Source of the DNA: Spirochaetota bacterium
Lineage (GTDB): Bacteria; Spirochaetota; UBA4802; UB4802
Length of the DNA stretch: 54,047 nucleotides
Direction of reading: 5' to 3'
NCBI GenBank assembly: GCA_040756435.1
Contig: JBFLZD010000024.1
Location: 1-54,047 of the forward strand
Both the position numbers and the translations under genes were made by a program. The notes below the pieces were generated by a model. It did no database searches. It had not been told where the DNA came from and worked only from the letters and a program-made list of their open reading frames with translations. Below are positions 15,829-19,985 of this stretch, one piece after another. Within the stretch, counting starts at the first letter, position 1, and every line of letters begins with the position of its first letter.

Positions 15829-16899
15829 ATGAGATATGCAATACTTGGATTACTGGTAGGGATACTTTTAGGGATTGCACCTGTTTTCATGATTCATACA
15901 GGATTTTTACTTACCCCATTATGGTATGGTTCATTACAAAAAATACAGGCTATAGAACCTGCATCCACTACTAATGAAAAATTGTCCTTTGCAGTTACTA
16001 CTGATAATGGCTACTATTATATTGGTGCCAATGGTTTGGTTCATAAATTTATCTCATCTGCTGATGCTTTTGTCAAACCTACTACTGATGGAAAATTTTA
16101 TATTACTTACAAAAAGATTGGCAATGAAATAGCCATGTATAATGCGGCCAATGAGTTTTTCTGGAAACTGCCTTCAACCGAGTACCCATACATTTCGCCT
16201 GACGGTTCCATTATTATACTCCTCACGGCTGATGGAAGCTCAGCTCGTATTGCTGATTTCAACGGCAATGTGTACCCCAATGATGAACTCAACGGACAAT
16301 TTACCACCACTATAGCATTTTCACAAAAAGGTTCTTTTGCAGGAATTGGCTTTATTGATGGACGGTATTATATATGCAACAATAAAGGACAGATTATTTA
16401 TAAGGGAACTTCACCATCATCAACTGTTGTTAAGGGTATCGCTATAGATGATAGTGGAAACTATGCGCTGGTACACTGCGGTAACAGCAGCAAGGATTAT
16501 GTGGTGGGTATTACTGTTGCCAGGCAAAAGAGCTTTACCTATGAACTATCGGCACCGCATTACGTAAAAACATCAATGGCTATTAATGCTTACGGCAAAG
16601 CGCTATTCTTAGATTTTACCAGGTTGCTTGAAATTGACATCAAAGGAAAAGACGTCACCTCATATGCTATCATCAAAAAACGGTATGGCCAATCACAGAT
16701 AAGTGTCAGTAACGACATCTTCATAATTAGCTATCCCACTGAAGCAGGTGGCTCAGTATGGTATGTGTGGCAATGGGGTAAGGGTACATTATACAAGCGG
16801 GAATTTTATGAAGAGCCATTCCTTCACCATATACTATCGCATAATATTATTCTTCTACGAGGTCAGGATACACTGATGTGCTTTGGCTATCAACAGTGA
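15829..16899 (+). CDS. Membrane-anchored beta-propeller-like protein of unknown function
   Basis: 356 residues. One N-terminal hydrophobic segment (AILGLLVGILLGIAPVFMI) anchors it or is a signal peptide. The rest is a succession of short strand motifs such as TTDGKFYITYKK, ISPDGSIIILLTADG, FSQKGSFAGIGF and IDDSGNYALVHCG, spaced about 40-45 residues as blades of a WD40-like propeller. It follows the sigma factor gene by nine bases, so the two are probably one transcript. Its last 53 bases overlap the end of the oppositely oriented glycosyltransferase gene. No known family is recognised beyond the general fold. Confidence 0.75.
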   Translation: MRYAILGLLVGILLGIAPVFMIHTGFLLTPLWYGSLQKIQAIEPASTTNEKLSFAVTTDNGYYYIGANGLVHKFISSADAFVKPTTDGKFYITYKKIGNEIAMYNAANEFFWKLPSTEYPYISPDGSIIILLTADGSSARIADFNGNVYPNDELNGQFTTTIAFSQKGSFAGIGFIDGRYYICNNKGQIIYKGTSPSSTVVKGIAIDDSGNYALVHCGNSSKDYVVGITVARQKSFTYELSAPHYVKTSMAINAYGKALFLDFTRLLEIDIKGKDVTSYAIIKKRYGQSQISVSNDIFIISYPTEAGGSVWYVWQWGKGTLYKREFYEEPFLHHILSHNIILLRGQDTLMCFGYQQ

Positions 16900-17719
16900 G
16901 CCACCGTACAACCCGCTCTACCTTTTGCAATAATGCAACATTGGAACGTTTTTTTGCCCCCTGATATAACACAGAACATTTTTGAAGCGCAACCTCAACT
17001 GCTTTATGGTAGTAAGCTTCCGGAAGCAATAAACCATCATTAGCAATCAGCTTGCATAGTGCATACACTCTGAAACGGTCCATACCCCACAGGGATAATG
17101 ACAGTTGGTCGCTGTGTCCGCCAAATTTTACAATAAGCTTTTGGGGAATAAAACCAATATAGTATTGCCAGGCAACACGCAGCCACAGATCATAATCCTC
17201 ACATACAGGCATACGCTCATCAAACATGCCCACCCGCTCAAACACACTGCGGTGCACCACCACTGCCGAAGGGCTCACCAGGCACAGATGCAGGCAATCC
17301 TCAAATATATGTCCTTCTTTTTTTTGATGCTTTTTCATTGGGTTGACGCGTTTGCCGTTTCTTATCCATAACTCATCAGTCTGATGGATATATATATTGG
17401 GATGAGCCTGAATATATTCATAGTGTGCAGCAAGTTTTCCAGGCAGCCACATATCGTCTGAATCAAGAAAGGCTATCCACTCTCCCTGTGCCTGCTGTAT
17501 ACCACGGTTACGCGCTGTGCTCACGCCACTATGGGGTATGTATATGTACTTAATTTTATTTGTATAGTGCGATAGTACCCGGGAAGTATCATCTGTTGAA
17601 CCATCATCAACCACAATACATTCATAGTCAGTAAATTTCTGCGTAAGTACTGACTCAACTGCCCGTGTAACCAGATGCGCTCTGTTAAAGGTGGCAATAA
17701 CAACCGAGAAAAACGGCAT
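16847..17719 (-). CDS. Family 2 glycosyltransferase
   Basis: 290 residues. The GT-A fold of GT2 enzymes is clear: SVVIATFNRAHLVTRAVESV, CIVVDDGSTDDT for the nucleotide site, GVSTARNRGI, FLDSDDMWLPGK for the metal-binding DxD, and EDYDLWLR for the catalytic base region. It would transfer a sugar from an NDP-sugar to a lipid, glycan or polysaccharide at the cytoplasmic face. It begins 3 bp after mlaD, so it belongs to the mla transcript, perhaps modifying a lipid or surface glycan. The end overlaps the convergent gene by 53 bp. Confidence 0.92.
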   Translation of the reverse strand: MPFFSVVIATFNRAHLVTRAVESVLTQKFTDYECIVVDDGSTDDTSRVLSHYTNKIKYIYIPHSGVSTARNRGIQQAQGEWIAFLDSDDMWLPGKLAAHYEYIQAHPNIYIHQTDELWIRNGKRVNPMKKHQKKEGHIFEDCLHLCLVSPSAVVVHRSVFERVGMFDERMPVCEDYDLWLRVAWQYYIGFIPQKLIVKFGGHSDQLSLSLWGMDRFRVYALCKLIANDGLLLPEAYYHKAVEVALQKCSVLYQGAKKRSNVALLQKVERVVRWLTVDSQSTSVYPDLVEE

Positions 17720-17722
17720 GTA

Positions 17723-18406
17723 TTATTTTTCACCCTTAAACAAAAACTTTACAGGATGTTTTTTGAGTTCAACCGAAATTTCATTCATGGTTTTTGCAGT
17801 TTCACGGAACGAAGCCATTATAGCCAGTATATCTTTTTGTGAATCCTGCAATACTGAGCTTATGGTCTCCACACTCTTTGAAAGATTAGCAACCAGACTG
17901 CGGATATTGCCTTTGCTTTCCAGTGATATATCCTGAATAACAGCTACAGTATTAGTCAGGGTTGCAAGAAGCGCATGCACATCCTGCACTATTGTTTCAA
18001 GGCTAACATACTCAACACCTTCAATTACTGCTCCGGGACGCAACAATGCTTCTTTTTTAACTGGATTTCTTATTTCTATAACAGTATCACCAATGATATT
18101 CTGATTCATAATGACTGCTGAACAGTCTTCATACATATCAATTTCTTTCTTAATACGTAACAGTGCCAGAAAATGTAATGATGGCTTGTACACCGGAATA
18201 ATATCCACTACCCTTCCCACCGTGTAGCCTTTTATTTTTACCTGTGTGCCGTTTTTTATTGAAGAAATATTATCAACCTTCATATACACATCAATGGTTG
18301 ACGTTGCAAAAGAGTAGCCTAATTTAAGAACAACAAACACCAGAAGTATTACCAGCGGTAAAAGTATAAATATAGCAACCCGTATTTCATTCTTTTCTAA
18401 TTTCAT
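17723..18406 (-). CDS. mlaD: MCE-domain protein of an Mla-type lipid transporter
   Basis: 227 residues. An N-terminal membrane helix (IFILLPLVILLVFVVLKLGY) is followed by the MCE domain: DVYMKVDNISSIKNGTQVKIKGYTVGRVVDI and later SAVIMNQNIIGDTVIEI, matching the strand pattern around GxxVxxxGxxVGxV. A C-terminal helical tail (about 140-227) would form the hydrophobic channel or partner contact. MlaD hexamers link the inner-membrane ABC complex to periplasmic lipid carriers. Gene order mlaE-ATPase-mlaD on one strand supports the call. There is no mlaC or mlaA nearby. Confidence 0.9.
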   Translation of the reverse strand: MKLEKNEIRVAIFILLPLVILLVFVVLKLGYSFATSTIDVYMKVDNISSIKNGTQVKIKGYTVGRVVDIIPVYKPSLHFLALLRIKKEIDMYEDCSAVIMNQNIIGDTVIEIRNPVKKEALLRPGAVIEGVEYVSLETIVQDVHALLATLTNTVAVIQDISLESKGNIRSLVANLSKSVETISSVLQDSQKDILAIMASFRETAKTMNEISVELKKHPVKFLFKGEK

Positions 18407-18417
18407 AAGTCTTACTC

Positions 18418-19185
18418 CTAACGTAAGGTCATTGGCCCATACGGCAATACTTTTACAAATTGTTTCACATATTCATTTTCAAATGTTTCAAATTCTTCCT
18501 TTGTTCCATCAAAAACAATACTCCCTTCATGCAGCATGATAAACCGCGTTGCAATATCAATATACACTAATGGCTGATAAGTGACAACTATAACAGTTTT
18601 ATTTGGTGCAAAAGCACGGTTTTGCAATGCCTGCAAAAAAATCTGTGCATTCCAAAGGCATTGCCCTTCAAGAGGGTGTTCAATTAAAAGCATATCAGGA
18701 TCCAACGCAATAGCTCGTGCAAAAGCAGTCCGCAACATCTCAGACTGGGTGAGCATAACGGGACGTAAATCCCTGCAATGCGATAAATGAAGATACACAA
18801 TGAGGGAATCAACTAGTTCATGAATTTCTTTTTCGGATAAATCAGTGTGGTACCTGAGTGGCAGCGCTATATTTTCATACACTGTCATATTACTGATGAG
18901 CGCATACCCACGTTGTACATACCCAAATATCTTTCTGAAATTATGAACCTCAACAAAGTCCATATGTTTAATATGTTGCTCTTTATAAAGCACTTCACCA
19001 CTATAATTTTCCAGAGCATGAGCAAGCAGCGGGCAAATATAATCAATACCACTATCCTCAGCACCAAAGATGACAACATCCTCACCCAAGCATAAATTAA
19101 ATGAAACATTACGAAGGTTTTGCTTGCCACCTTCAATAGTAACATTTTTAACTTCAATCAGTTGTTTTATTTCATTACATTCCAT
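18418..19185 (-). CDS. MlaF-like ABC protein with degenerate ATPase motifs
   Basis: 255 residues, placed between mlaE and mlaD where the ATPase MlaF belongs, and with MlaF-like length and surroundings (LIEVKNVTIEGGKQNLRNVSF). Every catalytic motif is altered. The Walker A position reads GAEDSGID (41-48), so the P-loop Lys and Thr are missing. The signature LSGG is LTQSEML. The Walker B end LLIEHPLEGQ has His where the catalytic Glu should be. The H-loop reads TYQP without His. Secondary structure and the flanking ARAIALDPDMLL are kept and the frame is intact. It is probably a scaffolding pseudo-ATPase or uses another ATPase in trans. It begins 2 bp after mlaE ends. Confidence 0.8.
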   Translation of the reverse strand: MECNEIKQLIEVKNVTIEGGKQNLRNVSFNLCLGEDVVIFGAEDSGIDYICPLLAHALENYSGEVLYKEQHIKHMDFVEVHNFRKIFGYVQRGYALISNMTVYENIALPLRYHTDLSEKEIHELVDSLIVYLHLSHCRDLRPVMLTQSEMLRTAFARAIALDPDMLLIEHPLEGQCLWNAQIFLQALQNRAFAPNKTVIVVTYQPLVYIDIATRFIMLHEGSIVFDGTKEEFETFENEYVKQFVKVLPYGPMTLR

Positions 19186-19187
19186 AA

Positions 19188-19985
19188 TTAAAAATAAAAT
19201 AAGACTGAAATTACCGCATTAATGATAAAAATAACTAACAACGTGCGTATGACAGCTTTGGAAACAAAAATTGGAATTTCAAAGCTTGACTTTGGCTTTA
19301 AACCATAATAACAGCAAATAAGAGGAATGAGAACTCCATATATAATACTCTTGGTGATAGTTACCAGTAAATCATTGAAAGTAAATGCATCCAGCAATGT
19401 CTGTGTAAATGTTCCCATGGGAATATAGACGCTGGTCAGTGCTATCAGATACCCACCAAAAAAAGCAATTACATCAAAAATAATGATTAGTGTAAAAATG
19501 GCAGCAAATGAAGCGACGATTCGTGGCAATATAATATACATTCGTGTATCAATTCCCATAAGCTCCAGAGACAGTATCTCTCTGTTCTGGGTTTGGGTGG
19601 CAATTTCAGCAGCTATCGCAGAGCCTGATCGTGCTACCACAATTAAAGCGGTAACCAGTGGACCAAGCTCTCGGGCAATGATAATAACCAAAAGATTGCC
19701 AATAAAGCTTTCAATTCCGTATTTGGGGAAATTGGTGGTTGCCTGAATAATAACTGTCGCTCCTAATAATAGCGCAATCCATGAAACCAGTGGCAGCGCA
19801 TCTATGCCAGTAAATCGTGTTTGATTAACCGCTATTGTATATAGTGACCGAATTTTAAGATAGCGCAATGAACGAAAAGAACGAACAATAGCTTTCATGT
19901 ATGTATTGAAATCAGCAATACCCCGTATAATTCCATTAACCTTTTGCACAATAATGAAAATATTTTTTTTAATAATCTGCACCAT
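19188..19985 (-). CDS. mlaE: MlaE-type ABC permease
   Basis: 265 residues with five or six membrane segments. The family signature is present: ARELGPLVTALIVVARSGSAIAAEI, followed by the ELMGIDTRMYIILPRI cytoplasmic element that contacts the ATPase in MlaFEDB. MlaE moves phospholipids between the inner membrane and the MCE channel. It is the first gene of mlaE-mlaF-like-mlaD-glycosyltransferase. The start ATG is at 19985. The intergenic DNA upstream carries a 19 bp palindrome at 20023-20041 shared with the divergent gene. Confidence 0.92.
   Translation of the reverse strand: MVQIIKKNIFIIVQKVNGIIRGIADFNTYMKAIVRSFRSLRYLKIRSLYTIAVNQTRFTGIDALPLVSWIALLLGATVIIQATTNFPKYGIESFIGNLLVIIIARELGPLVTALIVVARSGSAIAAEIATQTQNREILSLELMGIDTRMYIILPRIVASFAAIFTLIIIFDVIAFFGGYLIALTSVYIPMGTFTQTLLDAFTFNDLLVTITKSIIYGVLIPLICCYYGLKPKSSFEIPIFVSKAVIRTLLVIFIINAVISVLFYF

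Follow-up and report, generated by a model that had tools for sequence, protein, structure and literature searches.

A pseudo-ATPase MlaF under purifying selection in an MlaE-MlaF-MlaD module of Spirochaetota, a putative ATP-free lipid conduit

Closest described systems and the spirochaete locus

The MlaFEDB system of E. coli, Acinetobacter and Pseudomonas is the closest described counterpart of the protein analyzed here, pMlaF, which resembles MlaF in family, in fold (TM 0.85-0.90), in its mlaE and mlaD neighbors and in a C-terminal GP[IMV] tail. It differs from that system in three respects: the catalytic motifs of pMlaF are gone; its partner MlaE lacks the EExDA motif; and MlaC was not found in 45 of the 46 genomes of the order. 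Degenerate nucleotide-site residues are also a feature of heterodimeric ABC transporters with one degenerate site, in which a consensus site is kept across two NBDs. The spirochaete locus, in contrast, has one NBD gene, and Walker A, Walker B and the signature are all gone in a single chain.

The minimal MlaEFD system of Veillonella parvula likewise consists of three genes without MlaC, but its MlaF closely resembles model MlaF and its MlaD is a 419-residue bridge with a beta-barrel, whereas the MlaD described here has 227 residues and no barrel (PMC10665443). The mycobacterial Mce1 and Mce4 systems also contain an MCE permease, and their ATPase, MceG, can serve in trans and affects stability; unlike pMlaF, which we infer to be non-catalytic and which is co-inherited with its own MlaE, MceG is catalytic and needs its Walker B motif (PMC9947336). 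Pqi and Let are MCE lipid transport systems free of any ATPase domain, but they use a different membrane protein (PqiA or LetA) and carry no NBD relic, whereas the permease here is an MlaE of the PF02405 family (PMC12436622). The preliminary description of this DNA knew of no dead MlaF, and a search limited to the open-access literature likewise found none.

The window, by which we mean the whole stretch of 54,047 nucleotides that was analyzed, belongs to a Spirochaetota assembly of 3.6 Mb. Four of its minus-strand genes follow one after another:

19188..19985, minus strand: mlaE-type permease, partner of pMlaF (PF02405, 190 bits)
18418..19185, minus strand: pseudo-mlaF (pMlaF), 255 residues, open reading frame with an MlaF fold and no ATPase motifs
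17723..18406, minus strand: mlaD (PF02470, 46 bits)
16847..17719, minus strand: family 2 glycosyltransferase (PF00535)

The frame of pMlaF is open across all 255 residues and is directly flanked by mlaE and mlaD, as the preliminary description had read it. The glycosyltransferase adjoins the module in only part of the order, where synteny is variable, and is not part of the core module.

Placement of pMlaF in a different ABC-like family would have refuted the initial reading, but this is ruled out because MlaF is the best match by HMM, in the PDB and by fold. The best NCBIfam model is NF008809 (MlaF), at 98.9 bits and below its cut-off of 441, and Pfam assigns ABC_tran (PF00005, 43 bits). An AlphaFold2 model built with 42 orthologues as input (pLDDT 89.7, pTM 0.87) has MlaF chains as its top 11 PDB fold matches (TM 0.85-0.90 by query length), and the MlaFs of Acinetobacter, Pseudomonas and E. 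coli are among the best sequence matches. pMlaF thus meets the MlaF definition in subfamily sequence and fold and in its mlaE/mlaD neighborhood, and fails it in the Walker A Lys and Ser/Thr, the SGG, the Walker B Asp-Glu and the H-loop His. The closest relatives that carry a name show 97%, 78% and about 50% identity and come from bacteria titled Spirochaetota, Spirochaetia or Spirochaetes; single-sequence peptide patterns run against a wide genome set, a search that was not exhaustive outside Spirochaetota, found close relatives only in spirochaetes.

Motif loss and coding constraint

The motif positions of pMlaF were defined by alignment with an intact MlaF of the same genome (C10 MlaF), in which all motifs are preserved:

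19042..19065, minus strand: former Walker A, GAEDSGID, residues 41-48, Lys in 0 of 43 copies
18904..18921, minus strand: former Q-loop, YVQRGY, residues 89-94, Gln offset by one
18733..18753, minus strand: former signature, LTQSEML, residues 145-151, second Gly of SGG lost
18658..18681, minus strand: former Walker B and D-loop, EHPLEGQC, residues 169-176, Asp, Glu and D-loop Asp replaced
18571..18582, minus strand: former H-loop, TYQP, residues 202-205, His replaced by Tyr

Compared with C10 MlaF, the P-loop GRSGTGKT has become GAEDSGID, the signature ISGGM is LTQSE, the Walker B YDEP is IEHP (within LLIEHP), the D-loop SGLD is EGQC and the H-loop THDM is TYQP. The losses first reported for this protein (P-loop Lys and Thr, signature, Walker B Glu and H-loop His) each read as stated, and the alignment adds others: the Walker B Asp is E169, next to H170 in place of the Glu; the D-loop Asp is C176; and Q91 lies one residue ahead of the canonical Q-loop position, with an Arg aligned with the canonical Gln.

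These replacements are shared across the order. In a census of 43 pMlaF copies from 42 genomes, the P-loop Lys is absent throughout (0/43), so that relatives with intact motifs, which would have spoken against the initial reading, are not seen. At Walker B, Glu stands in for the Asp in 41 copies, and no copy has the catalytic Glu, with His at that position in 39. All 43 also lack the second signature Gly, which has given way to Ser in 39. The D-loop carries Cys or Ser instead of Asp in 42 copies, and the H-loop has Tyr in 36 and its His in only two. The Q-loop position is divided between Gln (0.57) and His (0.40). The recurrence of the same degenerate state in 43 copies from 42 genomes excludes sequencing error or chance. 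In some copies from family f7 (genus g22; L129-L134) the P-loop reads GxEGSGLK[ST], with a Lys that comes late by one residue.

Coding constraint, on the other hand, has been kept. Pairwise dN/dS values (NG86) for pMlaF are 0.037 against G004 and 0.054 against G003, near those of mlaE (0.022 in both pairs) and mlaD (0.022 and 0.034), and the glycosyltransferase gives higher values in the same pairs (0.15 and 0.18); for G003, dS has already reached about 1-2. Neutral decay, which would have undone the preliminary description, is not what these values indicate. The selection for a non-hydrolytic role that it proposed is well supported by order-wide motif loss together with low dN/dS. Our analysis thus shows that the nucleotide-binding and hydrolysis motifs are all gone from a protein whose fold and coding constraint are kept.

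Co-inheritance, partner proteins and the order of loss

Orthologues of pMlaF, all with open frames, occur in 42 of the 46 genomes of the order, and a scan of the class yielded the same 46 genomes. Across a sample of 393 Spirochaetota genomes, in which the best six candidates per genome were scored, the profile of the special MlaE (the permease class that accompanies pMlaF; E <= 1e-80) and pMlaF mark the identical 55 genomes, of which 42 belong to the order and 13 to the outside families f22 and f38; three weaker matches to the pMlaF profile (G064, G140 and G197) represent other MlaF proteins and were left out. mlaD of the pMlaF type is likewise present in these 42 order genomes, and the remaining four (G005, G009, G010 and G034) have no special MlaE, pMlaF or MlaD, absence calls that depend on assemblies 89-97% complete.

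The association does not require adjacency. In G043, mlaE lies next to mlaD but pmlaF is on a different contig (L158, L192); in f22 and f38 a pmlaF-mlaD pair is unlinked from the special mlaE (L138-L149, L184-L191); and in G006, G013, G014 and G015 mlaD is located elsewhere. MlaE, pMlaF and MlaD therefore evolve as one unit even when unlinked, and it is unlikely that pMlaF is kept merely through its operon position, since it is retained when unlinked, both in G043 and in the outgroups. One genome (G021, C242, L133) has a second pMlaF module, of the f7 family type, which may reflect transfer or contamination.

In the trees pMlaF is monophyletic. Separate clades hold the pMlaFs of the order (100/99) and those of the outgroups (100/98), the two join in a further clade (100/100), and the special MlaEs group congruently (100). 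Grouping through shared odd motifs alone is rejected, as the joint split retains a support of 99 after removal of 40 motif-region columns.

The outgroup copies differ in the P-loop. Of the 13 pMlaFs in f22 and f38, 12 keep the P-loop Lys, and all 13 have Ser for the second signature Gly, Cys for the D-loop Asp and Tyr for the H-loop His; Glu is found at the catalytic position in one. More distant sister MlaE-MlaF systems of the phylum keep Walker A and the Walker B Asp, lack the first signature Gly in 19 of 20 MlaFs, and are without the catalytic Glu in six and without the H-loop His in 11 of the 20. Within these sister systems (L198-L217), several MlaFs (for example L203, L205, L208, L211 and L216) are partly eroded, with an LSxG signature, a DNP, DDP or DMP Walker B and a replaced H-loop His next to an intact Walker A; such proteins could be slow or regulated ATPases. 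As judged from present-day sequences, this distribution suggests that the motor died stepwise, plausibly with the signature and H-loop going first, then the catalytic Glu and then the P-loop Lys. This order rests on distribution and was not formally reconstructed, and in the tree the sister systems do not fall as direct ancestors of pMlaF.

The permease has changed as well. The EExDA motif in the cytosolic loop of MCE permeases is the proposed ATPase-binding site (PMC9947336), and an EExDA-like motif (EEIDA or EQIDA) is present in all matched canonical permeases of the C9 and C10 types. The corresponding region of the window MlaE is:

19548..19607, minus strand: mlaE coupling-helix region EIATQTQNREILSLELMGID, EExDA motif lost

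The special MlaE class, which satisfies the PF02405 domain definition and fails that of EExDA, has an [RK]EILS-like sequence at this site (NREILS in the window), and the preceding E[IL]GTM has become EIATQ; the permeases of the sister systems read [HDN]E[IV][END]A-like. The EIATQ and [RK]EILS-like changes sit where MlaF docks.

MlaD meets the MCE definition (a TM helix and PF02470). The 227-residue window protein has one TM helix, one MCE domain and a helical C-terminus of about 85 residues in its AlphaFold2 model (pLDDT 72), and we speculate from this model that the helical C-terminus might reach toward the outer membrane. MlaC was rejected as a periplasmic partner: an MlaC-family match occurs in only one of the 46 order genomes (G026, C355, L248) and is possibly foreign. 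In one outgroup genome (G158, L185:4303-5734), the special mlaE has upstream of it genes that by eye resemble ExbB, ExbD and TonB; such neighbors were set aside, since they were not seen next to mlaE at the other outgroup loci that were read.

Possible roles of an MlaF without a motor

In the absence of biochemical data, we infer that pMlaF is non-catalytic and structural on MlaE, and that the complex is ATP-independent or at least does not power itself. The reading that we favor, and hold to be on balance probable, is an MlaE-MlaF-MlaD (MCE) complex with a pseudo-ATPase MlaF under purifying selection that acts as an ATP-free lipid conduit. Two copies of pMlaF would dock beneath the MlaE dimer and give it a rigid structural base, which would assemble, stabilize and possibly lock the complex. 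MlaE2-MlaD6 would form the conduit through which lipid travels between inner membrane and MCE ring with no use of ATP. Lipid would flow down its gradient, probably outward, although the direction is only inferred, with no alternating ATP-driven closure, and the rewritten coupling helix of MlaE would be the corresponding adaptation to an interface that has become static.

Precedents for parts of this model exist. MlaD-to-MlaC transfer has been reported to be ATP-independent and to be suppressed by ATP hydrolysis (PMC10212509), and Pqi and Let operate as MCE systems free of an ATPase (PMC12436622). Loss of catalysis does not by itself make an NBD a good scaffold, however, since Walker B mutants of Mycobacterium tuberculosis MceG do not stabilize the Mce complexes (PMC9947336); a tolerated dead NBD thus implies compensation, and the rewritten coupling helix may be it. 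Against the conduit model, MlaC is confined to one genome in 46 and MlaD is short, and the lipid exit route is unexplained. Against pure scaffolding, the conserved E43, H170, Y203 and P205 could reflect ligand binding.

The preliminary description had also raised trans-energized transport and advised a search for a second, catalytic MlaF, and such proteins were indeed found in the source genome, the C10 MlaF and another on C42. The genome has three MlaE genes: the window copy, a C10 copy in an mlaE-mlaF-mlaD set, and a lone C9 copy (L001/L153), which adjoins a dnaB-like gene with no adjacent ATPase; the intact MlaF-like gene on C42 (L006) may be the unlinked partner of this C9 mlaE. It is conceivable, if unlikely, that the C10 or C42 MlaF powers the special MlaE, exchanging or pairing with pMlaF, which would then be an inhibitor or a spare partner in an MceG-like sharing. 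At least one MlaF-like protein (E <= 1e-50) is present in each of the 46 order genomes, with intact motifs verified only in 19 C10-type copies and the C42 protein and not in each genome, and MceG, common to Mce1 and Mce4, provides a precedent (PMC9947336). However, a heterodimer of pMlaF and MlaF would have no complete composite site on either face, as Walker A, Walker B and the signature are all missing from pMlaF; the special MlaE has lost the EExDA docking motif of canonical permeases; and intact MlaF is not specific to the module, persisting in the four genomes without it.

A regulatory pseudo-NBD is another reading to which we give the same low weight. Here the remodeled pocket (GPE[DN]SG, EH[AP], Y.P) would bind a ligand that gates the MlaE-MlaD conduit, the candidates being a nucleotide bound in a novel manner, an anion or a regulatory protein. 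The former Walker A has the order-wide consensus G[P]E[ND]SG[IL]; G41, E43, G46 and P205 are invariant and H170 is conserved at 0.91; and the former motif blocks show higher average conservation than the remainder of the protein (mean JS 0.65 versus 0.56). Also, the outgroup proteins with a P-loop Lys could be intermediates that bind ATP without hydrolyzing it. This excess in conservation is modest, however, with 4% of random block sets matching it, no ligand is known, and the phosphate-contacting Lys and Ser/Thr positions vary (ranking 164th and 220th of 255 in conservation). The combination of conserved blocks and variable Lys and Thr positions suggests that the pocket has been remodeled and that phosphate contacts are no longer selected.

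That pMlaF is still an ATPase, working through an unorthodox active site, is very improbable: the fold and some conserved polar residues of the former pocket remain, but Lys, Glu, Asp, signature Gly and His are jointly lost in nearly all of the 43 copies. A decaying gene or assembly artefact, for which motif loss alone speaks, can be dismissed for practical purposes given open orthologous frames in 43 copies, a dN/dS of about 0.04, shared replacements, monophyly and co-occurrence.

Under the favored reading of an ATP-free conduit, the ABC-type lipid machine of this lineage probably runs without burning ATP of its own. Whether the NBD has become a permanent structural or gating subunit throughout the lineage, with Spirochaetota relatives keeping stages of the loss in which the P-loop Lys goes last, is in our judgment evenly poised. 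The need of MCE/Mla systems for ATP and the direction in which they move lipid are debated, and an order-wide, selected MlaEFD with a dead motor constitutes a natural test of what a permease and an MCE ring do without ATP. The graded series from live to dead NBDs, in addition, helps to separate what ABC ATPases contribute structurally from what they contribute by catalysis.
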